A stretch of 64,000 nucleotides of DNA from the NCBI RefSeq assembly GCF_963678975.1, contig NC_089272.1:44521391-44585390 (forward strand), written 5' to 3'. Numbering within the stretch: position 1 is the first letter of the stretch; every line of letters begins with the position of its first letter. The notes beneath the pieces were generated by a model that searched no databases, had not been told where the DNA came from, and worked only from the letters and a program-made list of their open reading frames with translations. The position numbers and the translations under genes were made by a program. This document shows, piece after piece, positions 5,429-64,000 of this stretch. The stretch comes from Dysidea avara (Eukaryota; Porifera; Demospongiae; Dictyoceratida; Dysideidae).

Positions 5429-5767
5429 CAGTGGCGGATCCAGGATGGGGCATTTGGGGCAAATGCCCCCCCCCCCTTCAAGAAATTGCATACAAGATCG
5501 ATATACTCTAATAGAGCAGTCAATTACTCTAATAAAGCAGTCACAATGTTCATGAGGCAGTGTAGCTTACCTATGAAGCTACAAATAGGATTTTATTTTA
5601 CATAACAGACGTGATATAGTAGGTAAGGATAACTAGCTATTATTGTTGTGACCTTTTTTTTTTTTTTTTTTTTTTGGTCTTCAACTGGTTTTCAGCAAGT
5701 TTTTTTGGTCTTCAACTGTTTTTCAGAAAGGTGCCCCCCCTCTTTCGAAACTCTGGATCCGCCCCTG
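5429..5767. mobile_element. hAT-like MITE, CAGTGGCGGATCC ends
   Basis: Termini CAGTGGCGGATCCAGG and CTCTGGATCCGCCCCTG form an inverted repeat of about 13 bases. The flanks TAATAATA and TAATATTA match 7 of 8, as expected for the 8-base duplication of hAT transposons. The interior carries a C-run next to the left end, two CTCTAATA(G/A)AGCAGTCA motifs (from 5496) and a long T-run followed by GGTCTTCAACT. The same order is seen in the element at 20932-21246, so the two belong to one family or close sister families. No coding capacity. Confidence 0.8.
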
Positions 5768-5963
5768 TAATATTACATATTATATTACTTTGTGTCCACA
5801 GCCTTAAGCTGTCACGTGTGAAACTACCACCTTATCACGTGACATGATTGCGTTGTTGGACAATGTGCAAATCTTGGTTATAAGTAAGAAGCTAGTGAAT
5901 AAGCTTCATTCAATAGGCCTCGTTACTCCATTGTGGTTAGGCGTTACTCAGAGGATTAGGCCA

Positions 5964-6324
5964 CTCCAAATAAGACTGTAGTTTCCCGTCCTGAGGTTTT
6001 CGTTTTTCGGTGCGGGCGGGAGGCTTATTATCATTATTCATTATTAAAGATTCGACTGCTCTATTAGAGTATCTCGATCTTGAGAGGATTTCAAGGTCAT
6101 GAAAATGGCTTTTTTGCAAGCTAGCAACCATTAGAACCGTTCATTTTAGGCTTCATCGTGCTTTTTAGCAACGCAAAATAAAAGGCTCCATGAGAAGTTT
6201 CCAGAAAGCAGCACAGGAAGTGGTTTTGGAAAAATAATGACAATAATGACCATTTAGTGCGGGTGCTCAGACGTGATGCGGGCGGAGGACGGGAAACTAC
6301 ACTCTCATTTGGAGTGGCCTTACT
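5964..6324. mobile_element. Nested inverted-repeat element, TAGGCCACTCC ends
   Basis: TAGGCCACTCCAAAT with TAGTTTCCCGTCC on the left is mirrored by GACGGGAAACTA with CATTTGGAGTGGCCTTA on the right. Both arms also contain a related GCGGGCGG block. The interior holds one reverse copy of the CTCTAATAGAGCAGTCA motif (6054-6080). I could not identify a target duplication, so the exact ends may be off by a few bases. Confidence 0.65.
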
Positions 6325-6523
6325 AACGAGATTAGTAAATATTACGTCATATTAGACTCGTTACAGTAATTATATTACTTAGGTAACGCGTTACGTTTGT
6401 AAGTAAAGTATCTTGCGTTATATTACCTGTTTTCATAGCGTATTTCGTTATATTACTTTGTTACCACAAAAGTAATAATATTACGTAACGCGTTACTTAT
6501 GTAACGCGTTACTCCCAACACTG

Positions 6524-7641
6524 GTAGTATATCAATGCTCCCTGTTATAACTCGTGAACTGGAGGGTTCGATGTAAATCATCGACTTCATGTTGCTGTTG
6601 TTAATAAATGTGCAATCAAGAAAGCTGAAATATACTTGATTGTGCAGATACTGATAACCAGCAGCGAACTTATAACTAAACATGTCAACACATTTTCGGT
6701 TGTACAGTACAATATGAAACATTTTTAGTTTAGCATTTCCAACATTTCTGATTGCTGTACTGTTTGAGATGTTCACTATACTTGTTAAATTACTGTCACA
6801 AGTATTCATATAGTAGTATAAGGCACTGGAATTATTCAGGTCACTGAATATTGCATTTTTAATATGTATTACGGAAGCATTGTAAGATTTTTGTGAAAAT
6901 ATCAAGTTTATTGCATATTGGAAAGGATTTGGACAAGATCCATGCATTTTGTATGAAAAATTTCCAACTGTTAAGGTATTGTCTGATTCTTTGAAAATAT
7001 ACGACTTCTGACCAACCCATTCTTTGTAATGAACAACAATGCCATAAATTCGCTTTAGATATCTGGGGCATATTGTGCAATTAATTCTTATAGTTACCTG
7101 ACTAATTATTGAATTTCCTATTATGTTCACAGCTGCTATTCCTGCATGCAATACCAGCATTGGTCCTTATTTCTGTCTTGTTTATTACCACTGACGTACA
7201 CTGGTAGAGAATTATTGATGCATTGTTTGTGACATTATTTTGTAACGAATCTGTAAATCTAAAGCTTTGGTACATTTTGATCTTGGAGTTGTTTGGGTTA
7301 TTCTTAAATTGAAAATTAACATTTTCAAGTCTAAAATTGGTTACATTGGACATCATCATCCATACAGATTCAGCACAAGTTATGTTGCAAGTGTTCTTAC
7401 CAATCATTGTAAAATTTTGAACATCTCTTACAAACATTGCTGTATAAAGATAATGTTGACCTGGTTTGAGTAGCAGTTCAGTGTTAGAGGTGAAATTGTA
7501 GTTGTTGATATAATACTGCAGAGTGTGAGTGTTACTGCTGGTATCATTACCATCATTGTCAGGTACTATGTGATATACATTAGAATTTGCTATGCTGATG
7601 AAAAGGGCCACAAAAAACATTACGTTGTATTCCTTCATCAT
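6524..7641 (-). pseudogene. N-terminal secreted ectodomain half of the same membrane protein
   Basis: On the minus strand a start at 7641 or 7638 (MMKEYN) is followed by a signal peptide (VMFFVALFISIANS). Next comes an Asn-rich, beta-strand-like ectodomain with many N-x-S/T sites: VYHIVPDN, LLLKPGQHYLY, FTMIGKNT and FRLENVNFQF. These rungs resemble right-handed beta-helix repeats. The frame shifts near 7150-7165, where an imperfect 13-base repeat (GGTATTGCA / GGAATAGCA) breaks NAGIA from AVNIIGNS, and it continues in a second frame to SIDILP. There the transposon at 5320-6523 interrupts it. Family members, as I remember them, have a much longer ectodomain before the TM block, so a middle part is missing as well. 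Frameshift, insertion and frame offset together argue for a pseudogene. Confidence 0.6.
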
Positions 7642-7855: not shown

Positions 7856-7899
7856 ATGAAAACGAATGCTGGTACGTTGTACATCATACGAAAGCATCA

Positions 7900-11584: not shown

Positions 11585-11703
11585 TGAAATACTCTAATAG
11601 AACATACACCTGTTGACAAAATACCCCAATAGAACAGTCACTGCTACTGTTCTGATAATCGAGTGTCCGGATAATCGAAGTTCGGATAATCGAGGTCCTA
11701 CTG
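11585..11703 (-). mobile_element. Solo end of a pogo-like (Tc1/mariner superfamily) element
   Basis: Read on the minus strand, TA is followed by CAGTAGGACCTCGATTATCC, then two more ATTATC(C/A)G-type repeats (GAACTTCGATTATCCGG, ACACTCGATTATCAG). Three tandem CGATTATCCG units behind a CAGTAGGAC terminus are typical of invertebrate pogo-like ends. Only one end is found. Next to it lie two copies of the (G/C)ACTGTTCTATT-type motif (11585-11642). Confidence 0.5.
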
Positions 11704-12197
11704 TATTTGTTGTTTGGCTCTTCTCATAGCCCACGCCCCATAAATGTCCATTTCGTAAGTGTCTTGCGTGTAAGTGTCGGTTCAATATAGCCACGGCGTT
11801 ATTGCACCGACCGCTTTTGGTTCAGTATCTAAGTATGGTGCATTCAGCAAAAACCAGAAACATACAGGTGTTAGCAAAGTTCTTGCAAATCCCATAATTC
11901 AAACACTTGCACATGTGCGTTATTGTTCTTGCCTTTTAATATCCTGAAACGAATGTCATCTGCTACAACTGCACCTAATGATAATGTTTGAATGTGATAC
12001 GGTAGCTACTGTAGTTCGTGTAAACATGACCATTGCTCACTTTTGCACCTTAGAATTTGAACTGCGTTTTATGCGCATGCGCAAAGTTTGAATTACCTGA
12101 CCTCATTTTTTGGTAAGCTTTTTCATCGTATACTGTCTATTCGTTTAGAGAAGTTGGCTTTGAACAACAAATTAACAAATTGTCAAATTCTTCATTT

Positions 12198-14823: not shown

Positions 14824-14829
14824 AGTACA

Positions 14830-15115: not shown

Positions 15116-15539
15116 ATCAAGACACACGGTCGTGCGGCCCAGGAATCCGGCGCGCCACACCGTGAGTATATTAACAGGAAGAAACTGAGAAAACGCAATT
15201 TTCACACCTATGTAGCTCTGTGATCCCTTATCCGATTGGAACCACATTTGCTAGAGAAGTGCCGGCCAGTTAGGGGAGTCTACATACCAAATTTGAAGAA
15301 AATCGCTCAAGCCATTTCCGGGATACGAGCGAACAAAATGTCGTTTTAATTTCTTCGTTTTTCTCTTCTTCATTTTCTTCATTTCGCACACTTCGCAAAA
15401 TCCGCCATAAAACACGAATGCGTACTCAGGTTGGGCTGAAATTTGGCACACTTAAAGGGCTCATTAAGGCGGATCTCAGTAACAACTCTTTGGTAGGAAT
15501 CCGATGAACATACACGGAGTTATGACCAATTATGTGCGT

Positions 15540-15870
15540 AAAATAAGGTCGAAGGTTTGTCACGCCTACAGGGTAAACCCCTTGGAAGAATGAGTTGAAA
15601 ATTGATATGTAGATGGAGTAACCATCGTAGGAGTGCCTTTTTGTGGTTTGAAAGGAATCGAGATAAAGACCATGGAGATATGACACAAAGCCCAACCTGT
15701 GTCAAAATTACGCGATCGATTTTTATGAATAAAACAACTATTAGTTTTCACGTATACCAGGCAAACCACTTAGAGCAATGAGCTGAAAATCGGTGTGTAG
15801 CTGGAATAATCATCATAGAAAGTCCTTGCAGTAGTACAGAAGAATCGGATTACAAACCACTGAGTTATGA
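15540..15870 (+). repeat. ~165-bp internal subrepeats of element A
   Basis: Two consecutive blocks share the order CACGxxTACxxGGxAAACC, AATGAG(T/C)TGAAAAT, TGTAG(A/C)TGGA(G/A)TAA, CATC(G/A)TAG, AATCG and GAG(T/A)TATGA. They start near 15560 and near 15735 and are diverged by roughly a quarter. A further copy of the GAGTTATGA landmark precedes them at about 15518. The same subrepeats are seen in copies 2, 3 and 4. Confidence 0.65.
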
Positions 15871-15949
15871 TTGGAAAAGGCAACTACGTGTAGCAAATGC
15901 GAGATCGAGATACTCTAATAGAACAGTCACCCTAATAGAGCATTCAGCT

Positions 15950-17640
15950 ACGTTTATAACTTACAATACTCCATTATAGAATTATATTACATTGCAAGTT
16001 ATTCTGTAGGGAATTCAGCTACAAACAGTTAATCTGATAGACAATTCAGCTACGAACAGTTAATCTGATAGACAATTCAGCTACAGGCAAGTCACCCTGT
16101 AGAGAGTTCACCTATAAACAAGTCACTCTGTAGAGAGATCAGCTAGAAGAAGTCACCTTGTAGAGAGTTCAGCTACAAAGAAACTACCCATGTAGAGAGT
16201 TCAGCTAGAAGAAGTCACCTTGTAGAGAGTTCAATTACAAAGAAACCACTGTGTAGAGAGTTCAGCTGCAAACAAATTACCCTGTACAGAGTTCAGTTAC
16301 AAACAGATCACCCTGTAGAGAGTTCAACTACAAACAAATCACCCTGTAGAGAGTTCAGCTACGAAAAGATCGCCCTGTAGAGAGTTCAGCTAGAAGAAGT
16401 CACATTGTAGGGAGTTCAGCAGCAAATAAATCGAGTCACCCTGTAGAGAGTTCAGCTACGAACAAATCACCCTGTAGAGAGTTTATCTACAAACAATTAA
16501 CCCTGTAGAAAGATCAGCTAGAAGAAGGTACCTTGTAGATAGTTCAGCTACAAAGAAACCATCATGTAGAGAGTTCAGCTGCAAACAAATTACTCTGTAG
16601 AGAATTCAGCTACAAACAAGTCACCCTGTATAGAAGAAATCACATTGTAGAGACAAAGAAACTATCATGTAGAGAGTTCAGCTGCAAACAAATCACCCTG
16701 TAGAGAATTCAGCTACAAGCACATTGCCCTGTAGAAAGATCAGCTAGAAGAAGTTACCTTGTAGAGAGTTCAGCTACAAACAAATTACCCTGTAGAGAGT
16801 TCAGCTAGAAACAAGTCATCCTGTAGAGAGATCAGCTAGAAGGATCACCTTGTAGAGAGTTCAGCTACAAACAAATCACCTGTAGAGGGTTCAGCTAGAA
16901 GAAGTCACCTTGTAGAGAGTTCAGCTACAAAGAAACCACCATGTAGAGAGTTCAGCTGCTAACAAATCAGCTGTAGAGAGTTCAACTAGAAACAAGTTAC
17001 CCTGTAGAGAGATCAGCTAGAAACAAGTCACCCTGTAGAGAGTTCAGCTAGAAGAAGTCACATTGTAGAGAGTTCAGCTACAAAGAAACTACCATGTAGA
17101 GAGTTCAGCTGCAACAAATCACCCTGTAGAGAATTCAGCTACAAACAAATCACCCTGTAGAAAGATCAGCTAGAAGAAGTTACCTTGTAGAGAGTTCAGC
17201 TACAAACAAATCACCCTGTAGAGAGTTCAGCTACAAACAAGTCATCCTATAGAGAGATCAACTAGAAGGATTACCCTGTAGAGAGTTCAGCTACAAACAA
17301 GTCATTCTGTAGAGAGATCAGCTAGAAGGATCGCCCTTTAGTGAGTTCAGCTACAAAAACAAATCACCCTTTAGAGACAAAGTAACCCAGTAGAGAGATC
17401 AGTAAGAAACAGATCACCTTGTAGAGAGTTCAGCTACAAACAAAATCACCCTGTAGAGAGTTCAGTTACAAACAAATCAACCTGTAGAGAGTTCAACTAC
17501 AAACAGATAACCCTGCAGCTAGAAACAAGTCACCCTGTAGAGGGAATCCTGTAGAGAGTTCAACTACAAGCAAATCACCCTGTAGAGTTCAGCTACATTT
17601 CAAGTCACCCAGTAGAGAGATCAGCTGCACACCAGTTATC
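15950..17640 (+). repeat. Minisatellite array 1 of element A (~31-bp unit)
   Basis: The unit is close to GTAGAGAGTTCAGCTACAAA plus CAAATCACCCT. Variants alternate: GATCAGCTAGAAGAAGT(C/T)ACCTT, GTTCAGCTACAAAGAAACCA and GTTCAGCTGCAAACAAATCA. The fixed core GTAGAGAG(T/A)TCAGCT recurs about every 30-33 bases; I estimate about 50 units. The array sits in the middle of element A copy 1. Confidence 0.9.
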
Positions 17641-17838
17641 TGTATAGGGAATAATTGGCATGTAATAAATGTATAGATTATATATATAATTTGTACATTT
17701 ACTGATAAAATCTGAATTAGTTAAAGTATTTAAAATCTACTTCATCTTTTTCTTCTTCCTGTCAGTTAAAGAAAAAAAGATAGGTTTAAAAGGCCCTAAA
17801 TGGCCGGCTTTGGGGTATACAAATACAAAAAGAAGTGA

Positions 17839-18540: not shown

Positions 18541-19370
18541 TATGAAGGGTGATCAGTGCCATAATTATGCCATATAATTATGTTATTGAGGTAGACTATT
18601 ATCTCTCTTATTATTAACTCTTGCTATTATGGTGTGGTGGGCTGCAGGGTAATGGTGATGTTGCTTATAATTACTGCCTTGTTATCATTAATTGTGTGAT
18701 GTTTCCATTGCATGCATGTGATATACATAGTATAGTTGTCATCATGATAAGTATGTATGCTTTGATATAGACTATATGATACCATTATCATGCAACATTG
18801 CCATTATGACATGCCATTACCATTATGACATAGACCATTGCCATTATGATAAAGACTTTACCATTATGACATAGACCTTTGCCATTGTGACATAGACTTT
18901 GCCATTTTGATGTAGACTTTTACCATTATGACATGGGCCTTTGCCATTGTGATATACATTATGACAACATAGACTTACCATTGTGATATAGACTTTTACC
19001 ATTATGACATAGACTTTTGTCGTTATAGCATTGACCTTTGCCATTATGATATAGACCTTTACATTCTGACATAGACCTTTGCCAGCCTGATATAAACTTT
19101 TACCATCATGAATTATTCTACCATAATGACATAGGCCTTTGCCATTATGATATAGACTTGTAATAATGTGATTAGGTACAGTGGTAGATCTTGTGGGAGG
19201 TACTCCAGCAACCAATTATTTACATACTTGATAATACTATCTAATAGAGCAGTCAGGTGTATATTCTTCCATTATTTTAACCAATTAAATTATCTATGCC
19301 ATAGCAAGAGCAGATCAGATCTAGGATTTTATAAATGGGTGCTCACAATGGCAATTAAAATAGAGAGGAG
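18541..19370 (-). mobile_element. Element B, copy 1 (reverse)
   Basis: From the junction TATGAAGGGTGATCAGTGCC it runs through CTATTATGGTGTGGTGGGCTG and GATGTTTCCATTGCATG, then a decayed 21-bp minisatellite (18780-19170; CATTATGACATAGAC units), and then CAGTGGTAGATCTTGTGGG, CAACCAATTATTTACATACTTG and AGATCAGATCTAGGATTTTA. The same order is found inverted at 32385-33720 and, in part, at 41990-42250. One CTAATAGAGCAGTCA motif lies inside (19230-19255). Confidence 0.7.
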
Positions 19371-20931: not shown

Positions 20932-21246
20932 CATAGGCGGTGGAGACGGGGCGGCCAGGGGGGCCATGCCCCCCCCCCCCCCCCCACTTTTTTGGGACAC
21001 TGTTTGCAAGAAAAGATCGAGATACTCTAATAGAACAGTCAGGATCTGGATACTCTAATAGAGCAGTCACAGTATTCAGAGTAGTGTAGCAAGTTACTTA
21101 GCTACGTATGTGTAGTTATAAATAAGGACATATAATTTGTGGAGAGCAGCTACTGTCAGCAGGCTATGACCTTTTTTTTTTTTTTTTGGTCTTCAACTTA
21201 TAGCTAGCCTGGCCCCCTCACTCTTTGGCCTACTCCACCGCCCCTG
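20932..21246. mobile_element. hAT-like MITE with exact 8-bp target duplication
   Basis: Ends CATAGGCGGTGGAG and CTCCACCGCCCCTG are inverted repeats, and TCGTATGT is present directly on both sides (20924-20931 and 21247-21254). The inside has a long C-run, two motif copies (21015-21041 and 21043-21069), and a T-run followed by GGTCTTCAACT. The order matches the element at 5429-5767. There is no coding capacity. Confidence 0.88.
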
Positions 21247-21336
21247 TCGTATGTGCATACTTAAGTGTGTCCCAGTGCTGGTTCACTGGGTATAGGTGTG
21301 ACCACTAGTGTGGCAGTCAAAGACTTTGCTTTGATA

Positions 21337-23579: not shown

Positions 23580-26350
23580 TTGGTGTCCGTGTCTCAATGC
23601 CCTCACACATAACAGGTGAAGTTGAAGTGGGACTTTGGAAGCTATTGCTGTGAAAAAGAAATTAAACTTCAGAAATTAGGTATAAAACTGACAATTATTT
23701 ATGAGATTAAGTATGGAAGTGACTTTTAGCCAAATGGTGGATTGCGGAGAAAATAAAAATAAATCTATAATTCATGACATTAGTTAGTCAAATGGCTTGC
23801 AAGTGCTTTCAATTAAAGTCTGGTCACCCAAACTCATCCCCAGGGTTGGAGCATACACAAAAATATAAGTACAGTATAACTATTAGGGATCAAGGAGGTT
23901 TGCAAAAGACACTTGACCATGGCCAAAAACCAGCAATACATCCATCTCGACTATTAGTTAGGTATACATACCTGTATTAATAAACCTAAACATTCCTTCA
24001 ACACAACCTAACACTTCCTATAAATTGCTACAATTTTTGGTACATTTTAAGAGAAATTTTCTACTGATTAACTATCAGATGCCTTCAGACAACTGAAATT
24101 ACAGCTAAGGCTTTGGTCTTGACTTTTTTCTTTGTTGTGAGTATAGGCATCACTTCAGCTTGACATGTGCCTCAGTTGACATACTGCACTGCATACACAG
24201 TGCAAGCATGGTGGGCTTACCTTTGTCTTCCTTTGTGTCCCATTTAATTTTTGCTGACTACACAAGGTGTCAATTTGTGATAGCTTGTGATGGTTTTCTA
24301 CATTTGTAATGGGAATCATCTGTATTTTTATAGTAGCTGCAGAGCTTCTTACACCGTTCTTCATTTGTAATGCAGTTTAACAGGCTGACACACAGCTGAA
24401 ATTGAAGCATAATGACAACTTTACTCTTCAGTAGTAATTGATAGTTGGGGTGTGTGTTCAGTTGAAAGCATACAGTCTGCATATGGTGCTATTGTTTATT
24501 TTGATATGGTATAAGTAGATGTACCAGTTATAATCACATTATTCAAAAGTAAGCAAACAAGTATATTCAAGGAAAATGAGGTCAATCAGGGATCATAGAA
24601 ATACAAAGAATTGAAACAAGGAGATCACCTAAGCACATGGAGATATACCTGTGGACATTTAATTCCAATTTCAGTTATGGATTACTTGTCCACTAGTATA
24701 TCCGTACTTTTACTTTTAAGATCAAAACTAACGAACATTAAACTAATAGTGTGTTGTTATCTTTGCATAGGCTTACAAGGGGTATTCATCATCATAAGGC
24801 ATGCAACTGGAATCAAGACATTTGATTGTTAATATTCTCTTTGATCACTTGATTTCAACTAAAAGTTATGCTTAATATTTTAAGCAGGATGTCTTATAAT
24901 GATCTTGAAATTATAAAGTTACTTGATCACCTGTTTTTGGCAGTACTTGGCTGCTTTATGTAGCTTTAACTAGACCCTTGATTTCATGATCACATAATTG
25001 CATTTTTATCCTAGGTTAAAGGGTAGTCACTTCTATAGGTTTTTGAACTCTGATCCAAGAGACATGCAACATCGCTGTTAAGGAAGAGATTGTATAATTA
25101 ATTCTTGTGGTTTAATAGTTGCATTGCAGTTGTTTATTGTATAAGCCACTGATGAGTACATAATGCATGGTGTATTACCTTTTGTCACTGGCCATCTTCG
25201 CACAAGTACATCTCAGATGGTTGCTTGTAAGTTGCTTCATATTTGTGACCATCTCAGCAAAGATGATCCACCTACGTAGTTCACACTTTTTTGGGTCTCA
25301 GCATTATATACAGCGTCCAAAATAGGTTATCAAAGTTTCAGCCAATTGCTTGGGCAGAGGGAAGGGACTGTAGCCCTTGTCAAACAGATTATGGAGGGCC
25401 CTCTTTAGCTGCCATCAAACATTGGCAATAGTTGTGCTAATTTATTACAGCTAATGGCTAAGTGTACAAATCCTTAGCTATGCCTACAATTCCACCAAAT
25501 TCTACTTGCAATTATTGCTATTCAAAGAGGAATTCCAAGTTATCAGCTTGCACTGATTACGTCCCTGCCCTTTGTTCACACCACCTGTCTATAAATGTAT
25601 AAAGATCAATATACCCCAATAGAGGAGTCACCCTAATACGACAGTCACACTTATGTTAGTGATCTCTGCTGATCAAATATTTCTTAGAGGGAGGGGTCCT
25701 TCTATGTACATCTCCATCTACTTGACACTAACAGGAGTCCATAATAAAGAAGGGTCCTCTCTATTACAGATTCTTGATACTGAAGATAAATATACCCTAT
25801 CAATGTAGTTCCCTAAAACACCTAATACCACTAAAAAGGTGCCTTCTCCACAAGACCTATTGAGGTAGGTAGATTTGGAATTATAGTGCTAGACACAATA
25901 GACATAAAAAAGAAATAAATTTATTTGTATAGCAGCTGCCCTGAAAACTGAATTTGTAGCCATAACTTTCATTTGTATATATAGGCTTAATGCTCGCCAT
26001 GAATTGACAAGTCAACCAAGTTGTATATATACAGTTTTAGACCTGCATTTACTTGTGTACACAAAGTGTTAAGGCATTTTAAATGAAGAAATGGTGATTT
26101 TGATTACACCTACTGCATTGTACGTACATGATCCTTTAAGTTGTTTATCTGCATATGCTTTAATTGCAAACTATAGACTGCAATTTGCTGAGATGGTCAC
26201 ATACGTATGTTGACAATTCTTATGTTTCTCAACAGTTTATAACCAACTGTCTAACTTTAAAGATGAAGAACCGATTGTGGACTAACAACTAACATTATTG
26301 ATAGTCATAAGAGATACCTACATGTAATTTAACTACTTAAAATGTATACA
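23580..26350. other. Long AT-rich stretch without recognised genes
   Basis: No exon or named repeat was recognised, other than two degenerate copies of the dispersed motif (ATACCCCAATAGAGGAGTCA, and CCTAATACGACAGTCAC) at 25608-25648. Confidence 0.5.
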
Positions 26351-27189
26351 GTGAATCAAGACACACGGTAGTGTGTCGTGCGGCCCAAGAAGCCGGCGCA
26401 TAACACCCGTGAGTATATTGACAGGAAGAAAGAAAACGCAATTTTCGCACCTCCGTAGCTCTGTGCTGCCTTGATGAAACAAGACGATTTTTGCTGTGGA
26501 CACTCCCTCCACCTTCAGCACTCCACATTCCAAATTTGAGCGAAATCGCTTCAAGCGTTCCCGAGATATGCGACTTCAAAAATTGGCTTAGTTTCTTCGT
26601 TTTTTTTCTTCTTATTTTTCTTCCTCTTTTCGCACATTTACAAAAACTGCTATAAAACGCGGACGCCATATCCGATTACCTTGAAATTTGGCACACTGAA
26701 GCGGGGTATAAAGGCGCATCTCTGTACCAACTTTGGCTAGGATACGATAAACAGGAAAAGAGTTATGATCGATTATTCACGAAAAATAACACTAATATGT
26801 TGTCACGCCTACAGGGTAAACCGCGTATGGGAAGAAGCTGACAATCGGTGGGTGAATAGGTTAACTATTGAACCTCAAACCTTTTGTGGTTTGAAAGAAA
26901 TCGAGCTAAAAACCAGGAAGATACAACGAAACAACCAACAGTGTGTAACAATTACGCAATCGAGATTAGCTAATAAAAAAAACGATTACTTGCCACGCCT
27001 ATCAGATAAACCGCTTGAGGTAATGCTTTGAAAATCGCTGTATAGATGGAGTAATCATCTTAGAAAGGCTCTTCAATGGTGCAGAAGAATCAGACTTAAA
27101 GCCACGGAGTTATAACACGAAATCCAACTTGGTGCAGCAAGTGCGAGATCGAGATACTCTAATAGAGCAGTCATCCTAATAGAGCAGTC

Positions 27190-37415: not shown

Positions 37416-37863
37416 TAGGGATGCGGCGATTATGCCGGAATAATTTCGGGCATAATAGGTATGTGTGAGAATCAGGAATTATGCTAGCATTTTGAGGTGA
37501 TTATAAAGCTTTAACAGAAGGAAAATCTGCAGATTGCACAATTCCGTTTAAAAAGATCGAGATACTCTAATAGAGCAGTCAGAAACTCTAATAGAACAGT
37601 CACTAAAGATTATTTACTCTAATAAAGCAGTCACATTGAAATGAAATACTCTAATACAGCAACCAGCTAAAGAATTCAAGACTATTTGAAGCTTAAACAT
37701 CAATGAAAATGGTCTGATACAGCAATAAACTGGCATTATTAGCCAATTATAGTGGCATAATTTTGGGAATAATGGGCAATTCTCAAAAGCATAATAGGTG
37801 ATTTTTTGAGCACTGCTCAAAAGCATAATGCTCAATTTTTGGAGCATAATAGCCTCATGCCTA
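37416..37863. mobile_element. Sister MITE of the 36433 element
   Basis: Ends TAGGGATGCGGCGATTATGC and GCATAATAGCCTCATGCCTA are diverged inverted repeats of the same type as at 36433-36873. CTCTTTGG is repeated exactly outside (37408-37415 and 37864-37871). It contains GCATAATAGGT subterminal repeats and four direct motif copies (37555-37660) instead of the inverted pair. Confidence 0.88.
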
Positions 37864-45200: not shown

Positions 45201-46010
45201 ATTAGGGTGACTGTTCTATTAGAGTATCTCGATCTCGCATTTGCTACACGTAGTTGCCTTTCGAATCATAACTCAGTGGTTTGTAATCCGATTCTTCTGT
45301 GCTACTGCAAGGACTTTCTATGATGATTATTCCAGCTACAAACTGATTTTCAGCTCATTGCTCTAAGCGGTTTGCCTGGTAGACGTGAAAACTAATAGTT
45401 TTTTATTCATAAAAATCGATCGCGTAATTTTGACACAGGTTGGGTTTTGTGTCATATCTCCATGGTCTTTATCTCAATTCCTTTCAAACCACAAAAGGCA
45501 CTCCTACGATGGTTACTCCATCTACATATCAATTTTAAACTCATTCCTCCAAGGGGTTTACCCTGTAGGCGTGACAGACCTTCGACCTTATTTTACGCAC
45601 ATAATTGGTCATAACTCCGTGAATGTTCATCGGATTCCTACCAAAGTTGGTACTGAGATCCGCCTTAATGAGCCCTTCAAGTGTGCCAAATTTCAGCCCT
45701 ATCCGAGTACGCATTCGTGTTTTATGGCAGATTTTGCGAAGTGTGCGAAATGAAGATGAAGAAGAAGAAGAAAAAAACGAAGAAATTAAAACGAAATTTT
45801 GTTCGCTCGTATCTCGGAAATGACTGGATCGATTTTCTTCGAATTTGGTATGTAGACTCCCATAACTGGCCGGCACGTCTGTATCACATTTGGTTCCAAT
45901 CGGATAAGGGATCACAGAGCTACATAGGTGTGAAAATTGCGTTTTCTTTCTTCCTGTTAATATACTCACGGTGTGGCGCGCCGGATTCTTGGGCCGCACG
46001 ACTGTCTTGA
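42253..46010 (-). mobile_element. Element A, copy 3 (reverse)
   Basis: Read on the minus strand: left end TCAAGACAGTCGTGCGGCCC (from 46010), the 165-bp subrepeat module (to about 45240), a motif doublet (45193-45238), array 3, an AT spacer, and half of the foldback, whose second arm is lost by a deletion between GGTGAAAA and the element B junction. The left end lies only 200 bases upstream of the dioxygenase start codon. An open frame of 152 residues in the module (minus strand, 45999-45541) is not shared by copies 1 and 2, so it is unlikely to be a gene. Confidence 0.75.
42515..45140 (-). repeat. Minisatellite array 3 of element A (~31-bp unit, inverted)
   Basis: Units appear as AGCTGAACTCTCTACAGGGTGATTTGTTTGT on the plus strand (shown here as AGCTGAACTCTCTAC plus spacer text). 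About 80 units with the same variant classes as arrays 1 and 2 (CTTCTTCTAGCTGAT, TGGTGGTTTCTTTGTAGCTG) and block-wise recurrence, for example 42960-43160 against 43240-43430. Confidence 0.9.
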
Positions 46011-46209
46011 TCTAATTCTCAGCACGTACGTTTTTTGAGTGATCGCTGACCCTTGGATCAATTGTATCGGCGACCTTAGCGGTGCGAGACTGCGAGTACG
46101 TTGTAGCATTCAAGCGTTCGGACTTTCCCGGCATAGCCTATATACGTAGCTACCAGAGTTGAGTGCCGCGGGTCAGGTGCGAACGGAGTAGTGATTCAAA
46201 CAGAAGGCG
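46011..46209 (+). promoter_or_regulatory. Probable promoter / 5' UTR of the dioxygenase gene
   Basis: This is a 200-base stretch richer in CG than its surroundings, wedged between the end of element A copy 3 and the start codon. No TATA box was recognised. Its shortness means that the element may contribute upstream regulatory sequence. Assignment is by position only. Confidence 0.3.
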
Positions 46210-47879: not shown

Positions 47880-50620
47880 GCTAACTTGTGCTAGAGTGTT
47901 TCATCAGCATACTGTATTGTAATGTGCATTAATTTGCAGCTATACCATAATATTATGGGTATATTGTAGGGGTAAATCTGCCTGGTTGCTTGCTTGAAGG
48001 GTAAATATGCTCTGTTTCTTAAACCCCTCCTTTATTGAGTGCAACAACCTGTCTAGTGCTCTATGAATACAGTAGCAAACACTATAGTGTATTTGATGAA
48101 TTTTCCAAAATACTGTACATTAGCAGACTTGGCACTACCATCTTGTGTACATCAGATATAATACAGTATTTTCAGTTGATTCCCAGGAATACAAGGATTC
48201 CACTGTATACATAATGTACATTTATTGTAGCTCAATATGTGCAACTCAAATTTGCATGTATACAATATAAAGAATGCGAAATCTGTAATTGTACTTGGCT
48301 ACTTGCACTGATGTTGGACACCCCACATTCTGTATAGCTATTTGTTTGCACTTTTTTTGCATGTATATCATATATATCACCTTGTCATTATCACTGGCAT
48401 TGTACTGTCTGTGGATAAGTGTGAGCATACTATATGTGACAGGAAAACCAGTCTTAATGTCACACTAGAAATCCACTAGCGATTACGTACAAATAATTCA
48501 CAGAATTATTTGTAATTCAAAGTATTAGTGACTAGTGATTCTAATCACTATAAAGCTGATTGGAAGTTTGGAATGCCTTATTTTAATCTGTAAAATGTGA
48601 CATTAAGGCTGATTTTCCAAAATCCAGTCCCATATGTGACTGGATTTCGAACAACAATCCTTTTGGGCACATGTAATAGCTGTAAGAAAATAAATTTCAG
48701 CAATCCTTTTAAATTATATATTCCACATTTGCTATTAATTAAACTCTCGTGCTGTGAAGTTTCACACCCAAAGCGTCTTTCTGCTAGGAGATATGTATAT
48801 CAGACCATGTGGTAATTTCACAATGCGTGGGATACCAATTAACTTACAAATTGGGTGACATGCTCATAGTTGAAACTAACTATTTAGACAATGATATAAT
48901 TATGTTATTAACTATGAGAAATCTCCTTTATTTAATATATTCTAGATGGTGGGGATAGAATTGTTTATCAACAAAGTGATTTTACACCATTTCCACTTAA
49001 TCACTCACAGAACTCAATATATTACTATAAAAGTTAGTTTGTAATATATTAGACAGTGAACTGGCCATATCTCTGGAATGCATGCTTCAAGATATCAAGC
49101 TACAATATTAACACAAGACCCAATACTTCATTTTAGCTAGAAAAGAGAAAGTATTTACCAAAGATGGTTTCCCAAATAATTGGGAATTTTTACTGTGTAC
49201 GCCAGGCCTTACACCCATCCACCTTGATGAGATGTTTTGGTTGCACAAAGTATTTGTCTGGCTGCATTAATTACAGCAATTACTCTAATAACCACTGGTA
49301 TGCCATTATTGATAATTATGTAAACCACACATCACCTGACACCAGAAATTCATATAATAATCAAGTTTGCTTTTGCTTGATTAGTGTAGTGTGGCTATTA
49401 AAGGAATTCATTTTGCAGCTTAGCTATTTGTCCATCAAGCACAAAGTACATCTTAGTAGAGGAATACTAGGAACTGACAATGAGACTGATGCTATAAGTT
49501 GAATTGATTTGAATAGGTGATTATCATTAATAATATGATTTACCTTGTATGTATAGCCTTCCACCACCAACTGACCACTAGCTATATAATGTCATTATTA
49601 AAAATTTTACTGATTCTCTTACAAAAACAGGAAGTGTCCTTTGACATTGATGTGTCATGGGTCCTCTACTGCCCCTTATGGTATGCTACTCAATGGATAC
49701 TAACTAGTGGTGGATCCAGTGAAGGCCACAAAAGACATGCACATTCCCCCTCCCAAAAGTCTATACGCAAGATCGAATAGAGCATTCAGTCAAATACTCT
49801 AATAGAACAGTCACCACATGTAACATTATTGAGAACTCTCCACTGAGTATGGAAACTTGTATCTGCAGCGCCATTCCAAGGGAAGTCATAGCTATGTAGC
49901 CTGCAAGTAATTTTTTTTTTGCAAATAAAACTTTGTATGTCATTCTTATAAATATGACAATTTATTTTAGGCTCAAGCTGAACTCATGACTGTCACTGAT
50001 CCCTACATGGTCTTGATCAATTAATAGACCACTTAGAAAGTGTGATTTATTACTATGATTTAGATATTGTGCATCAAACTACTCTACATTAAAAATTCCA
50101 GTATGGAAACATGTAAAATACCTAGGCCTACAGTATAGTGTCTGGGAGGCATAGCCCCCCCCAGACCCTCTTTATATAGCTACCTGTAACCCAGGTCATG
50201 ATGCAAAATCTGTCCTTGCATACTGCAACTACAGTTCTGGACCTGATCTTGATCTATTCCCGAGTTACGATCTTTATATACCCACAATAGTACATTATAC
50301 ATAGGTTTATCTGACAATAATCTGATGAGTGTGATCATTAAAAGGGTTGGCATTAACATCATTGTATATACATAGCCATTTTCTTGTATTCACAATGTCA
50401 ACATGGACTTAGTATGGTATTTGAATTATCAAGGTGCATGGAGTGTAAATATTCTCATCACATTCATAGCAGTATAGTGGCAGAAAGCCATAATGTTTAA
50501 GTACACTGATTGAATGCAGAGGAAATCCTGTATCCCAGGCTGCACGTCTTCTCAGGACTACAAGTTGTCTGTGAATCAAGTCACCACCTGGTCTGGGATT
50601 TCTTTCTGCATAGTTTTAGT
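47880..50620. other. Intergenic DNA with one truncated MITE
   Basis: No genes were recognised. At 49708-49815, GGTGGATCCAGTG, a C-rich patch and two motif copies (49771-49813) resemble the left half of the element at 5429-5767. A CCAGTC..ATATGTGACTGGATTT fragment near 48620-48645 matches the ends of the inverted-repeat element at 58549-58803. Confidence 0.5.
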
Positions 50621-51219: not shown

Positions 51220-53930
51220 GCACACCCTAGGGTGCAATATGTTACGTGACCACAAACAGAAGTCTGCATGACTATAATTTATAGTTTCCTATTGTTACAG
51301 TAACTATACACACCATCCTTCTACCACATCTAGCTCTTATTGCCCTTCTACATTTACCCTATGTCTAACCACATAACATTTTACACAAAGGTATGAAGTG
51401 TACATACTGTAACAATCATGAACACTGCAACATTAGCATTGGAGGTAAACAAGATAGAGATACTCTAATAGAGCAGTCACCCAACTACTGTAATAGAACA
51501 TTCAATGGAAACATAGAAGTTGGTTTTGCTGCAATCATCCAAATCTGTCTGCATTTAAAGATTTAAAAGGCCTTCATTAACTGATGCATTTTTTGTACAG
51601 TAATTAATTGCATATACAATCTCATATCATTCAAATCTTTCCAGTGGGGGTATGCTACCAGACCATCCTGATATTCTTTGCTAACTAGGGTACAGTTGAT
51701 GTATATAAGAACAAATTTAAATGGTAGCCACCCCATATACTATGCTCTGGCCCTCCACTTTTGGAGTACCGTTCTCTGCCCTTGGTTTTACAGTACATGC
51801 CCCTAGGTCTCTTTGTAAGAACTATGTACTATTTGTACTTTCTACAAGGGTTTTGGTTATTTATATAGCTAACTTTATTGCTATGGCTAAAGAGGTGTGC
51901 AGAACCCATGGACTCTATTTCATTTCTACAAAACTAGTGGCAGGTAATAAGATTAGGTATAGCTCAGCCTCTGCTATATTATTGGTTGATGGAACGGGTT
52001 TGGGTATAGCAACCAAGCACATGATGCACCTTATTAAATTGTCGACTGTTTCACAATAATATAGGTCCATGTCAGCCTGAGAATAACCCTTGGTTTCCCA
52101 AATATTACAAATTCCTTTAACCAAACAATTACACTCCTTGCTTTATAGCCTTATAGCTCTGGTATACTTGTAGGTACCATCATACAATTTTTTGTCAGCA
52201 CTTCTCTACATAATTATGCACTAGTGGTATGGATGTTCATTGAATCTATGATGTAATAAATGCTTAAATCAATGTAAACAGTTTTATTGTAATAGATACA
52301 CTCTGTTTATTTACAAGTTTTAGAATTTGTTGGGTATCTACATCATTCAGGCACAAGCAGAAAAGTTTCAGGGCAAAAGATTACTGTTTGATGGTTTTAC
52401 AATGAAAATTGTGCCATGACATAGATGCAGGGAAATATACGAATAAACATGGAAAGCTTGTTTAATAAGGAAACTTTTATTTCTAATGTGTGCTTAGAAG
52501 TTACTGATCCAATAAAACTATAATTTGTCATTGCGATTGTCTCCATTCATCTAAAAGATAAGTATTATCTCAAAGTCAAAAAATGTATGGCAAAATCTAT
52601 TGGTGGGAAACCAAGGGATAAACTGAATAATATTGTAATTGAAAGGTTGTGAAATGCATGCAGGTAGCATATAAGCATTTTATGTGGAAATGTCACCAAA
52701 TTGCAGTATTTTGGTATCTAATTTTCAAAATTTACCCTCGGAGGACATGCCCCTCCAGACTCCCTAGCTTATGTACATGCTGGGTGTGCACACCACCTCC
52801 ACCCAAGGTAACTCAGAGTGCTTTGAGTTATTCCCCAACTCTTAATCCTAAATCCACCACTTGGTAGTACAACCATGTGCATCTCATGCCACTGTACACA
52901 ATTCTATATAATATAGTGCTGGTATCAAATCTGTTGAATAAACAAATTTTTGTGGGACTATAATAATTATATTGGCAGTAATTGTATTGGTTGTAATGAT
53001 ATGATCTAGAGATTTGGGTGCATGTTTTCCAAGAAAATGTTTACAATTATGATTAATATTAAGGTATTTTTCTTGGTTAAATAATGGTCATTCTCAAACA
53101 AGGAACTTTTCTTCTGAGATTTAGGAATTTATATTGGCTTTGCATACTACACTGTATTTTGAAAGTAAACTAGCCTAGACATTTTAAAAATTGAGATTGA
53201 ATATTGAGAACTGAGTGAGCTACACTATTTTGAAAACAAGGTAAATTTAGGCCCCTCAGATATTGAATAGCCATCAGTGCATCACTAGCTAAAGTAGATA
53301 GGAATTTTTTGTATGCTGTATGTAAATAGGAATTTTAAAAACATTAGACTAAGGCTGAAAGATGTTTTTAGGTTGTGTATGATCTATAGTATGAAGAAAT
53401 ATTTAAATTGATTGTCTGAGAATGAACTGAGAAGAGTTGTGCACCATTTTATAAGCAAACATAACCTAAGTACGTATACGGTGTAGTTGTCAGTCACAAT
53501 TTTAGGGAAGGAGTCTGAGGATTTAGGGTAGTCTCCTCCCTAACAGCCCTAGGATAAACACTGACAAATGGGATAAAAGATAATAGATCTTTAATAAATT
53601 GCGGTTTATGAAACAGTGTGTAATCCGTCTCAGCTGGTCGCTAATTGGCCCAAAATTTCCTGGCTTCAATTGGCAGGTGTTTGCTATCTTTAGACAAATG
53701 CCCTGATTGAGAAAAATATATAATAGTATGTTCAAATTGTTACGTGGCTACAGTACCATGCATTGATGCACACTAGACGTAATTAGTAAACTGTATTAAG
53801 TTTTCTAAAGTAAACTCGTAAGTCAAAAAATGATATCTTAAATGGTACAAACAACCATAATCCGTCTTATGCATAAGATTTTGTGAATGCTATCCCACTA
53901 GTCACACATTTGGCTCACTTGCATGACTGT
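51220..53930. other. Intergenic DNA, no gene recognised
   Basis: Two motif copies lie at 51452-51508 (ACTCTAATAGAGCAGTCAC; TGTAATAGAACATTCAA). Otherwise there are only short low-complexity frames. A 112-residue frame at 51721-52059 looks partly protein-like but has no splice context or family resemblance. Confidence 0.45.
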
Positions 53931-56609: not shown

Positions 56610-58005
56610 ATATAGAGTGTGTATGTGACACTGGAATAGATCTATTCTCATTATCTCATAATAAAAATTATCATCATTAAAGATTCTGCATATTTGTGTG
56701 GGATTCACACTTTGACATGTACAGCATGTGCTTTCCTTTTTTTGTTTGTTTGTGCTGCTAGTATTACTGCTGCAGCTCAAATAAATTCATTCAAGCATAT
56801 ACATGTAATTATTATATGAAATTAATTTCAATGCACAAATGAAGTATGGTATGCAATTATGTACCATATACACAATCATGCATTAATACCCATACCAACC
56901 AATGTAACAGACAGTACCTAGTAACAGATACAGTAGTGTGTCTAGTGTAATGCTCACTGAATTATAACTCTCAACTTACAAAACTACAGATTTACAAAGC
57001 TTGTACATGTTACAGGTCAATACATGCTATTCTAAGCCATCTAAAGGCATGTAGTTTATCACATTATTTTTATTTTGTGTTTGTTCCCAAAATACATGTA
57101 CCCAACAACACTGTATGTGCAAGTGTAGTATATTGAACAATAGAAATTACATTTTATACATAATATTATGTGCTGTTGTATAAATGAAGAGTTCCTATGT
57201 GTAACAGTATTAGCATTTCTTCCCAAGTGTTGGACTAGAGATGAACCTATTCTTTAATTTTCCACCTATTTAGCTAATATTCTGATTTTTGGTCAAAATT
57301 TATTAACTTGCTCATTGACTGTGTCTCAAGCTCAAAAGTCATGCATGCATGGTTATCCTGTCGCAATAATTATTTCACAAATGTAGAGACTGCTGTGTTA
57401 GAATGTCTCTACTATAGCAAGAGTGCATAAGTGCATACCTTTTGTGTGATTGTTCTATTAGTGTATATTTCAGGATATTTATGAAACAGGTATTTTTTTT
57501 GTTCTTTAGCGTCCACCTTTCAAATTGTACCTAATACCAGCATTAAAAGCTCATAATGTGGTATGATTATTGTTATTCTCATGGTGCATGTACATGAAAC
57601 TAACTTAAGCTATATCATGATGGTACTGGACTATTGTATTCTTATAGAAATGTATATAACACACCCTAAGAAAATCAGCTCACGTAAAGCAAATATTTTA
57701 TTTATCAGCACTGGAATCCAAAAATAAAATTGATGAAAATAACCACATTAAAAATTTCGATGTAATTTGTGTGTAGGGTAGAACTCAGTCAAGTCAGAAA
57801 TGTACTGTACATTTCATATGGTTCAATAAAGTTTTCAGGAAGAAAACTTTAATGCTGCTGCATGCTGTTTTGGTTCTATCTATTGTGTTACATTTTGTCT
57901 CACCTACATAAATCTGTGTTAGATTACAATGTAGTGAAGGTGTATTTCTAGTAATCATACAGTGTACAGTACATACATGTAGTGCATTATATTTATTGTT
58001 TCTGT
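56610..58005. other. Large intron of the Ig receptor
   Basis: About 1.4 kb between the stalk and TM exons, AT-rich, with no exon recognised. A weak motif copy in reverse (TGATTGTTCTATTAGTGTA) is at 57447-57466. Confidence 0.4.
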
Positions 58006-60088: not shown

Positions 60089-60089
60089 T

Positions 60090-60401: not shown

Positions 60402-60509
60402 TTCACTTCTTTTTGTATTTGTATACCCCAAAGCCGGCTTATGGCCAACTTTTGGAATTTTTAAACCTATCTTTTTTTTCTCTTTACCACAGGAAGCAGA
60501 AAAAGATAC

Positions 60510-61470
60510 AGGGTGATTTGTTTGCAGCTGAACTCTTTAAATGGTGGTTTCTTTGTAGCTGAACTCTCTACAAGGTGACTTTGTCTAGCTGATCTCTCTA
60601 CAGGGTGATTTGTTTGTAGCTGAGCTCTCTACAGGTCATTTGTTTGCAGCTGGACTAATTACATGGTGATTTCTTTGTAGCTGAATTCTCTACAAGGTGA
60701 CCTCTTCTAGCTGATCTCTCTACAGGGTGATATGTTTCTAGCTGAATGCTCTACAGGTGATTTGTTTGCAGCTGAACTCTACATGGTGGTTTCTCTGTAG
60801 CTGAACTCTCCACAAGGTAACCTCTTCTAGTTGAACTCTCTACAGGGTGACTTGTTTGTAGCTGAACTATCTGCAGGGTGGTTTTTTGTAGCTGAACTCT
60901 CTACAAGGTGATCCTTCTAGCTGAACTCTCTAAAGGTGATCTTTTCGTAGCTGAACTCTGTACAGGGTGAATTGTTTGTAGCTGAACTCTCTACAGTGTG
61001 ATCTGTTTGTAGCTGAACTCTCTATAGGATGGTTTCTTTGTAGCCGAACTCGCTGCAAGGTGATTTTTTCTTGTAGCTGAACTCTCTGCGGGTGATTTGT
61101 TTGTAGCTGAACTCTCTACAAGGTAACGTTTTCTAGCTGAGCTCTCTCTTGTTTTTAACTGATCTCTCTACAGAGTAAATTGTTAGTAAAGCTAAACTCT
61201 TTACATGGCGGATTTTGGTTGCTAAACTCTCTGCATGAAGACTTGTTTGTAGCAGAATTCTCTTCAGAGTGAATTGTTTGTAGCTGAACTCTCTACAGGG
61301 TGTATGACTTATTGATAGCTAAACTCTCTTCAATGTGACTTATATATACAGCGATATATTTGTAGCTGAACTCTCTACAGGGTGACTTGCTTGTAGCTGA
61401 ACTGTCTACAATATTAACTGGTTGCTGCTGAACTCCCTACAGCATAACTTGCAATGTAATAGAAATCTAT
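60510..61470 (-). repeat. Minisatellite array 4 of element A
   Basis: About 30 units of AGCTGAACTCTCTACAGGGTG type, decaying towards 61470. The variant classes match array 3. Confidence 0.85.
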
Positions 61471-61874
61471 AATGGAGTAAGTCATAAACTAGCTGAATGC
61501 TCTATTAGGGTGACTGTTCTATTAGAGTATCTCGATCTAGCATTTGCAACACGGAGTTGGATTTGGAATCATAAGTCAGTGGTTTGTATACCGATTGTTC
61601 TGCACTACTGCAAGGACTTTCTACGATGAATATTCCAGCTACTTACCAATTTTCAGCTCACTGTTCTAAGCTGTTTGCCTGGTAGGCGTGAAAATTATTG
61701 GTATTTTTGTTCACGAATCTCGATCGCGCAATTGTTACACACCTTCGGTTTCGTGTCATATCTCCATGATCTTTATTTCGATTGCTTTCAAACCACCAAA
61801 AGGCACTCCTACAATGGTTGATCTATCTACAAAATGATTTTCAACTCATTCCATGAAGCGGTTTACCCTGTAGG

Positions 61875-62650
61875 TAGGGTCCGCAATGAAAAAAAAATCG
61901 ATAATCACGAAATTGTCCCCCTACTATTTCAACCTGCAGGGCATATCAAAGTATTTTTCTACGTACCAGTAAAACTTATTTATCTTTCTCCATACGACGG
62001 GAATCGCGGTTGTTTTATGCTGGAAATCGTGAAAAATTGCGTGCTCTCCGGATGAAGCATGGGTACCTTCCCATACTTGGCATATATAGTCAGCCTATGA
62101 AATTTATAAACCAAGGGCCTGACGGTTTATAAGTTAAGGGCCTGAAGGTTTATAAATTTCAAGGTCTATACCTGATTATAACCCACAGCAGAAATAAATC
62201 GATTTGCTACTGTGGATTTGGTACGGAGCTACTCCTTGCCGAAAATCGGCCGAAAACCACGTATTTTTAGATTCGGAGCAATCCAGCAATCAACGAAAGG
62301 AAAGCCCACAAACCTTCACTATACAGTAATATAGTTTGGTTATCACTTCATGCACAGCGCAAGTTTCATATGGATCTGAGCTTTCCTTCCATCAAACTAA
62401 GCGGCATGAAATTTCTTCCTAGCGTGTCTGAGACTATAAAATGGGAGGCGTGGCTGCAATAACTCCAAGTTTTAGTTTCTCCAGCAAGTGATTTAGGCTT
62501 CAACATTATGTTGTGACCACCTAATGGTATTAGTTTCCAACCAGAAATGGATCACGTGATTATGGATTGATTTTTCGTTTGCATTATAGCTATGCTATAG
62601 AGACACCATTGGTGAAGCATAGAGTTAGGCATAGTAAAACTCGGGTCCTA
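61875..62650. mobile_element. Possible TAGGGTCCGCAAT-family insertion into element A copy 4
   Basis: TAGGGTCCGCAAT starts exactly where element A copy 4 stops being alignable, and GGGTCCTA ends at 62650. The interior has a repeat GGGCCTGA(C/A)GGTTTATAA at 62115-62155 but no arm symmetry. No target duplication was found, so only the left end is well supported. Confidence 0.35.
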
Positions 62651-62659
62651 CCAAAAATG

Positions 62660-64000
62660 GCAGGGTTGTTTGTATGCAAGATCAAGATACTCTAATAGAG
62701 CAGTCATGCAAACAGTCTCCAGTCTCTTTACTATTCTTTTCTCTTTAGTAAGCAAGTGGAATCCATAAACAGGCAGAATTGAAATATCAGGGTAAAAGTG
62801 CAATTGGAAAGAAACCTCAATAGTATCAGATTACTGGTTTGAATCCACATTATGAGTGCATGGCTATACCCAGAGGCAATATATATAGACAAGATTAGGT
62901 AATAAGAATAATTATATATGCTGCTAGAGTTTCAATTCACTACAATAGCTGCAGAGGAATTTCAAAAAGAAAATTAATATTGGTATGAATTGGCCACCTT
63001 GCACTATACTAAAAGGCACAACATACACTTTTGATTAATTAGCTATTAATATCTTCATATTAACTGTAGCTGTAAGTTTTGTATATTGTAATGATGTGTA
63101 TAGGCCCTTCTAACACACTGCTAAGCAAACATTCGTCACACAAACTGGTGTCAAATTATAATGGTAGAAATATCAATCTATTGTGCAAAATTGTAATTTT
63201 CCTGTGCCTTATTTATACTCCCTGCATGGTGGAGGCTCTGCACAGTAATAAATACAATACAATACAATATATATAATTATAGTTTTAATGGTACAAATAC
63301 AAAACTATATAATTATATTTTAATTAATTTTGCAAGCTTTTAAATTTCTGTTTTGCTTGTAGGATGTGCATGCAATTTTATGTTGATCTATAGACTGTGT
63401 ATGGTATATATTTGGTAACATGTCGCATGTGTGAGATGTATACATGTACTATAGATATCCTTTTTATTATATGAGTCATAAGTTTAAGGACTTATGATAC
63501 TTGGTATAACATACATGCAGTTTCAATGGCCTATGCCTTCCCACTATGGATCTATTACCTTAAATGTGACTTAAAATGTGATTTCTAAAGAACATGTAAT
63601 TTTCTTCAATGACTTATAAACCTCACATAAATTAAGGAATGGCTATACACATACATAGACAGCTCTACAAAGTGCATGTTATACATATATTATAGAGCAC
63701 TCAGTACATTGTGGCTGTTGGTATAACAGTTATCTAACAGGCCTTTGGTGTGGTTTCTCATGATAAAGCCAAAAATAAGTAATACCCTTAAGCTATATGG
63801 GTGAAAAACCTTAAATTTCTTGTTTGTTAAAGGCTCACACACACATATATATATATATAATATAGCACAGAGTAACTGCCTGCAGCCTGCTGTGAAAAAA
63901 ATAAGATTGAGGACATACCTCCCTAACTTTTAAGAAGAAATTAAGTACAAACTAGCTAAACTTGTATACCACTGATGTAAATGATTTTTGTTGGCTCTAA
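62660..64000. other. AT-rich end of the window without recognised genes
   Basis: One motif copy (62680-62706: ACTCTAATAGAGCAGTCA) and a few short microsatellites ((TA)n near 63847). Nothing else was recognised. Confidence 0.5.

Follow-up and report, generated by a model that had tools for sequence, protein, structure and literature searches.

The stretch analyzed here, hereafter the window, comprises 64,000 nucleotides of contig NC_089272.1 of the sponge Dysidea avara (assembly GCF_963678975.1, positions 44,521,391 to 44,585,390, forward strand). Open reading frames in it resemble genes of demosponges. The subject here is a short motif with the core CTCTAATAGAGCAGTCA, which is common to transposons of at least two superfamilies and to other repeats as well. 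A preliminary description of the window had placed this core at about 19 places. All 19 hold at least one site with at most three mismatches, and the total of 34 such sites (shuffled sequence: mean 0.14, largest 1) makes the earlier figure of about 28 a slight undercount.

Motif sites and their carriers in the window

Sites lying outside the unclassified elements A and B are listed below, together with the miniature inverted-repeat transposable elements (MITEs) that bear them. Sites come from a mismatch search unless stated otherwise; TIR stands for terminal inverted repeat and TSD for target-site duplication, and lines without a sign have no assigned strand.

2140..2177, −, degenerate pair of motif sites, with 3 and 4 mismatches
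5429..5767, MITE with TIR CAGTGGCGGATCCAG and 5-bp TSD taata (8-mer with 1 mismatch), bearing the motif at 5495-5543
5495..5543, +, motif with prefix and a second site 21 bp further
5959..6319, PIF/Harbinger-like MITE with TIR GGCCACTCCAAAT and TSD TTA, from its ends and duplication
6053..6081, −, one site, prefix complete
11592..11640, +, degenerate pair of sites immediately within a pogo-like terminal repeat
11641..11705, +, terminal repeat of pogo/Tigger-like type containing GATAATCGA units, recognised by eye; a 15-bp tandem was found by repeat search
20936..21247, MITE laid out internally as 5429-5767 with different TIR letters; ends approximate, by eye
21014..21069, +, two sites with a spacing of 28 bp
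25604..25647, +, degenerate pair of sites, with 3 and 4 mismatches
34030..34454, hAT-like MITE with TIR TAGGGCTGGGCGG; 8-bp TSD in five of six copies, none in the window copy
34117..34198, −, three sites, unit about 32 bp
36433..36873, hAT-like foldback MITE with TIR TAGGGACCCGCCGATT and 8-bp TSD cttactgt
36570..36641, convergent motif pair
37416..37863, hAT-like MITE with TIR TAGGGATGCGGCGA and 8-bp TSD ctctttgg
37554..37665, +, four direct sites
49768..49813, +, two sites adjoining a AGTGGTGGATCCAGTG end that by eye resembles the 5429 family, in a flank group of their own
51452..51504, +, two sites with a spacing of 25 bp
57447..57463, −, one degenerate site
62679..62706, +, one site with near-full prefix

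Abundance and boundaries of the motif

Across the whole genome (550.8 Mb in 108 contigs), CTCTAATAGARCAGTCA with at most one mismatch gave 52,712 plus 53,140 matches, 105,852 in all and about one per 5.2 kb, against 0 for the same pattern written backwards; at this tolerance the motif thus stands far above background. In line with this, 20 arbitrarily picked 10-kb stretches (200 kb) held 36 sites with at most two mismatches, distributed over 10 of the 20. The 27- and 21-base motif patterns had no match among viral contigs, and the motif was not found in bacterial and archaeal genomes; both collections may omit records near this genome. No mention of the core letters was found in the literature text searched.

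The motif forms a module, AGATCGAGATA followed by CTCTAATAGARCAGTCA, of about 28 bp with a sharp 3' edge. For further comparison, 58 places were assembled from the window, the 20 sampled stretches and eight loci that had themselves been chosen by the motif. After removal of seven relatives, other relatives being kept, the remaining 51 first copies show high information content from about three bases 5' of the core through its final A, and only 0.11 bit at the first base after it. On the 5' side, AGATCGAG fades. The longer prefix GATCGAGATA, said earlier to precede the core as a rule, is indeed common there but degrades among copies.

Little beyond the module is shared. In 561 pairwise comparisons of 34 places, mostly a single one for each flank group, the 60-bp near flanks had mean similarity scores of 6.14 upstream and 6.32 downstream, compared with 6.22 and 6.08 for 60-bp segments lying 300 bp off. 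Scores for the downstream near flank have a higher tail (99th percentile 10.7 vs 9.5), and the top-scoring pair there, window_51463 and L011_4248, is a single family split by clustering. Near flanks being hardly more alike than far flanks, the shared sequence is the module and little else.

The motif is carried by transposons of different classes

Grouping by flanks divided the 58 places into 39 groups, of which seven have two or more members; because the grouping split one family or more, 39 is a maximum. The 19 window places alone give 13 groups, so that the earlier figure of at least seven carrier families was not overstated. Its separation of the MITE types is less firm, as 5429 and 20936 share their layout and 36433 and 37416 are partly alike, so that some may be related.

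The MITE at 5959-6319 has a 3-bp TWA (TTA or TAA) target-site duplication in 10 of the 11 copies with both ends, the window copy included; five more fetched copies had one end that could not be found. Together with its terminal inverted repeats, this marks it as PIF/Harbinger-like. By contrast, 8-bp duplications occur in five of six copies of the MITE at 34030-34454, the window copy having none, and in the window copies of both 36433 and 37416, and with their terminal inverted repeats these three appear hAT-like. In the MITE family of 5429, which has 1901 first-look candidates in the genome, a 5-bp duplication is present in two of four copies with both ends, a fifth copy having one end only. 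The pogo-like end at 11641-11705 was recognised by eye. The difference between 3-bp TWA and 8-bp duplications makes a single common ancestor of the carriers unlikely, and with the scarcity of shared flanks between groups it upholds the claim that elements with unrelated ends share the motif.

Core columns differ in their tolerance of change

In 70 copies with at most three mismatches, the columns of the core vary to very different degrees. Mismatches number 19, 26 and 14 in columns 9, 11 and 14, and 8, 11 and 8 in columns 1, 2 and 15, whereas columns 6, 7, 8, 10, 12, 13, 16 and 17 have 0-2 each. The unevenness gives a chi-square of 146 (nominal p 5e-23); 12 of the 58 places were dropped as relatives in this test, and the p value is nominal because other related places were kept.

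The same contrast appears genome-wide. Opening columns 9, 11 and 14 yields 82,587 exact matches (control 5), and opening columns 6, 13 and 16 yields 34,794 (control 2). Among the 100 matches listed for each search, all from the start of contig C1, the exact core accounts for 31 in the first case and 94 in the second; by extrapolation, variants would number some 50,000 and some 2,000, respectively. The three free columns occur in 18 combinations among the 100 matches listed, and therefore do not merely reflect two or three founder types.

A hairpin or RNA palindrome, CTCTA-TAGAG, was considered as a source of constraint and rejected: column 9 varies in 19 of 70 copies and its partner, column 3, in hardly any (3 of 70). 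Pairwise identity is higher in the core than in the upstream flank in 27 of 28 diverged pairs. As the places were mostly found by the motif, this comparison is biased and was not counted as evidence.

The motif is multiplied head to tail

In the window and the 20 sampled stretches together (78 sites, 264 kb), 30 neighbouring pairs lie within 120 bp of each other, where 4.4 are expected at random (largest 12). Twenty-nine are direct and one is convergent, in agreement with the doubling and tripling described before. Direct spacings in this set are 17, 21, 25, 27, 28, 31, 32, 37, 54 and 117 bp. Exact direct pairs at most 47 bp apart, start to start, number 4,496 in the genome; among 100 of them listed, 94 are spaced 20-32 bp, six are spaced 38 bp and enclose a third, degenerate site, and none fall at 33-37 or 39-47 bp. 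On each strand 1,062 convergent pairs were counted, at identical loci since the pattern is palindromic; those listed belong, by look, mostly to a few foldback types.

The linkers between direct sites resemble shortened copies of the prefix, and the pairs thus look like duplications of a 28-bp unit. Site number changes within families, from three units to two in L029 and between one and two sites in the 5429 family. Most places carry one or two sites only.

Elements A and B and their satellite arrays

Two kinds of motif carrier, elements A and B, are unclassified repeats with 31-bp and 21-bp arrays, respectively. Their parts in the window are as follows.

15116..15901, +, element A body, copy 1
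15902..15946, +, motif doublet, element A copy 1
16004..17617, +, 31-bp satellite array, apparently motif-derived
26355..27145, +, element A body, diverged copy 2
27146..27190, +, motif doublet, element A copy 2
27207..29830, +, 31-bp satellite array
42616..45128, −, 31-bp satellite array, element A copy 3
45191..45235, −, motif doublet, element A copy 3
45236..46011, −, element A body, copy 3
60507..61302, −, 31-bp satellite array, element A copy 4
61494..61538, −, motif doublet, element A copy 4
61539..61874, −, element A body, copy 4
18801..19159, −, 21-bp array, element B
19239..19255, +, motif site, element B copy 1, prefix replaced
32503..32519, −, motif site, element B copy 2
32601..33715, +, 21-bp array, element B

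Copies 1 and 2 of element A are 66.6% identical overall and match at 27 of 28 positions of the motif. Only 9 of 873 windows along the two copies equal the identity of the motif and every one of them overlaps it, the motif being the most conserved stretch between these two element A subfamilies. When element A was sought by its flank, all eight copies reaching that far, the two queries among them, carried the motif (at most one mismatch of 19) within 350 bp. Short partial matches to element A (38-80 nt) in L010, L027 and L013 had no motif.

The 31-bp arrays of element A begin beside the motif. The second motif site and its tail, starting TCACCCTAATAGAGCATTCAGCTAC, align to the 31-bp unit (CACCCTGTAGAGAGTTCAGCTAC...) better than 1000 of 1000 shuffles, and intermediates such as TCTGATAGACAATTCA sit between the motif and canonical 31-bp units. 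None of the other five motif regions aligns significantly to this unit (the closest, the 34117 tandem, is equalled by 67 of 1000 shuffles), and the 28-base core alone is equalled by 813 of 1000. Along the arrays, motif-likeness changes with the expected sign in all five arrays computed and significantly in none, two others having too few units. With one of six regions above shuffles and no significant trend with distance, descent of the 31-bp satellite from the motif is to be called likely. For the 21-bp arrays of element B, none of the six motif regions aligns above shuffles. The suggestion that the motif seeds array growth thus draws support from element A but not from element B.

By eye, the 21-bp arrays at 18801-19159 and 32601-33715 look motif-like (ATA-TCATAATGGCAAAAGTC), though not above shuffles. 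A shared foldback repeat, possibly a terminus, lies on the far side of the element A arrays (17665-18540, 29854-30368, 42256-42536 and 60080-60506). Between two element A arrays, a long open frame at 46195-47814 (+) contains a 2OG-Fe(II) oxygenase domain (PF13640, E 1.9e-9) and is possibly a host gene.

Other repeats of the window are five near-identical 141-bp tandem units at 22286-22999 (96% matches), an inverted repeat at 34838-35321 and 35832-36315 (484-nt arms, 88% complementary, 510 nt apart), and a 468-bp self-complementary palindrome at 14357-14824 (about 89%).

The motif behaves as part of its carriers in two MITE families

Mobility of the motif itself had been raised as one explanation for its distribution. 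Empty sites were sought with the MITE flanks joined and the motif block removed, and scoring was confined to the candidates of greatest similarity to the window copies. For the 34030 MITE, 40 of 325 candidates were scored: 37 contain a block of 78-83 nt at the junction, one contains a shorter block and two are without the left flank. Five copies that were read all bear the motif, one missing a 32-bp unit. For the 5959 MITE, 40 of 288 were scored and 15 read, including the shortest among them; 13 bear the motif, and in the exceptions it is partly deleted (L034) or that flank is replaced (L048). No clear empty site was thus present among the candidates scored in either family, within which the motif block behaves as part of the element. 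Likewise, no duplication at the module edges exceeded the largest of 300 re-pairings (57 places, 15 possible 5' edges). With neither a clear empty site nor an edge duplication, there is no sign that the motif transposes by itself, and this explanation is left unsupported.

A putative protein-binding site shared among transposons

The reading that we prefer, and hold with roughly even confidence, is that a sequence-specific protein binds the motif, and that many transposon families retain this putative binding site as an aid to their spread. It starts from observed properties of the motif, namely its abundance, its sharp 3' edge, carriers with different duplications, head-to-tail multiplication at limited spacing, column tolerance and a conservation exceeding that of the element A body, and from these we infer protein binding and a benefit to the element. 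The motif would act in cis for a postulated DNA-binding protein encoded by the host or by a transposon, and non-autonomous DNA transposons of at least two superfamilies would carry the site because it helps them to spread. The benefit might lie, for example, in more open chromatin, in relief from silencing or in an accessory transposition factor drawn to the site. New families would have gained the motif through recombination or template switching rather than through transposition of the motif. Among the options of the preliminary description, selection as a binding site is the better supported, by column tolerance and by conservation in element A, while function and protein remain conjectural.

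Several points weigh against this reading. The binding protein remains postulated, none having been sought experimentally. A transposon with both ends and a duplication is established for a minority of the 58 places; an automatic search for terminal inverted repeats and duplications ranked two of them higher than any of 40 random controls (best score 42), and one of the two, L001, failed a closer look. The motif is also not required to be a hAT, as L014:6553-9251 illustrates: this hAT-like element, with terminal inverted repeats (3 mismatches in 14), an 8-bp duplication, a 607-amino-acid open frame whose hAT domain matches lie below Pfam cut-offs, and ends resembling by eye those of the 34030 MITE, has no motif site better than five mismatches. 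Similarly, L026:1855-2302 has inverted 28-bp ends like those of the 5959 MITE, another interior and no motif. The CpG observed/expected ratio is 0.33 up to 100 bp from the motif and 0.37-0.43 farther away; CpG depletion being as strong beside the motif as elsewhere, this proxy gives no sign of local hypomethylation. Finally, it is implausible that dozens of families arrived independently at about 20 fixed letters; copying must have occurred, so that some of the conservation of the motif may reflect recent copying.

Alternative explanations

The main rival, which we regard as unlikely but deserving of serious attention, makes the motif a functionless passenger, an abundant 28-bp repeat monomer copied by recombination, by template switching during gap repair or by satellite-type dispersal. 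The direct pairs look like 28-bp tandem duplications with shortened linkers (28, 27, 25, 24, 21 and 20), one exact 28-bp duplication linker occurs among the 100 pairs listed, and the 31-bp satellite seems to descend from the motif. Traffic between transposons and satellites is moreover described for bivalve satellites and Helentron-type elements in the excerpts considered of PMC7492417 and PMC5139131. A passenger should vary evenly along the core, yet the columns differ strongly; it should bring ragged neighbouring pieces along, yet flanks are hardly shared; and it would not be expected to be the most conserved part of element A.

It is improbable, in our view, that the motif is a promoter-like host signal, for example a proximal sequence element of the small nuclear RNA type (about 20 bp), through which the elements are transcribed. 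Its length, sharp boundaries and degenerate columns would fit a promoter element. No U6 gene to compare with was located, whether by RF00026 (on which control genomes were silent too) or by a 29-base or a 21-base pattern, and an Rfam scan of the window gave no match over cut-offs.

Still less probable is a recombination or replication seed that favours tandem duplication and the growth of arrays but has no other activity. The predominance of direct pairs (29 of 30 close pairs; 4,496 exact pairs genome-wide) and the start of the element A arrays beside the motif speak for it. Against it stand the similarity gradient, of the right sign in the five arrays computed and significant in none, the 21-bp array, which aligns to none of six motif regions better than shuffles, and the fixed columns, which a seed need not keep.

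Least probable of all is a single ancestral carrier whose ends were replaced, a possibility that the preliminary description itself had set against its proposal: at L009:1204-1241, by eye, about 80 bp of the 5429-family interior recur in the absence of that family's ends, and the 5959 and 34030 MITEs have 10 bases after the motif in common, but the target-site duplications belong to different superfamilies and across 561 pairs similarity hardly rises from far to near flanks.

Comparison with known systems

MITEs can spread host transcription-factor sites, such as those of E2F in plants, usually with one MITE family per factor. The motif resembles these cases in being a binding-site-like sequence on MITEs at high copy number, and differs in occurring in many families.

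The CENP-B box has a 17-bp consensus with TTCG and CGGG anchors. Core and prefix letters do not fit this consensus, and the motif lies in dispersed elements. In the part of PMC5139131 considered, the 17-bp box is described from human alpha satellite and, in similar form, from two divergent nematode satellite monomers, and CENP-B is related to pogo transposases; the likeness consists in a 17-bp core within otherwise different repeats, one carrier with a pogo-like end and a link to satellite rearrangement. The Cg_HINE elements of oyster, non-autonomous Helentrons, contain satellite-like arrays, and according to the excerpt used, related flanks may hold unrelated arrays while some families share nothing (PMC7492417). 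Both there and here an interspersed element places a central satellite-like array beside a conserved flank, whereas here one 28-bp module crosses superfamilies and element A is not a demonstrated Helentron.

The nearest known parallel in behaviour would be the targets of VANC proteins in Arabidopsis VANDAL transposons, of which we do not claim the motif to be a member. As far as the excerpt considered describes them, these are short head-to-tail motifs in non-coding transposon DNA whose number changes by tandem duplication, and VANC6 motifs are also found outside VANDAL, in the unrelated transposon AT9TSD1 (Hosaka et al. 2017, PMC5735166). Direct tandem clustering in transposons, changes in site number between related copies and sharing across unrelated transposons are thus common to both. 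In contrast, VANC motifs are 8-9 bp long and concentrated in few groups of transposable elements, whereas the motif described here measures about 20-28 bp, exceeds 80,000 copies and spans at least two superfamilies. Nor is there the CpG retention that VANC-like anti-silencing would lead one to expect, as a proxy of hypomethylation (CpG observed/expected 0.33 near vs 0.37-0.43 far).

Implications

A wider and more tentative proposal, which we would sooner doubt than assert, is that of a selfish cis-acting module crossing superfamilies: unrelated transposon families of a single animal genome would have acquired the same putative landing site of about 28 bp for one trans-acting protein, and this site would be kept by selection, tandemly multiplied and, in one lineage, turned into kilobase satellite arrays. 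If true, the module would be a public good or an arms-race target among otherwise competing mobile elements. If one protein reads the motif, an early-branching animal would possess a factor acting in trans whose potential sites number more than 80,000 and lie in several classes of DNA transposon at once; the recruitment of shared factors by non-autonomous elements, the passage of sites between superfamilies and the transition from binding site to satellite would then become testable. Even if passive, the motif would be a clear example of a short sequence with exact boundaries that has spread among transposons of unrelated kinds.

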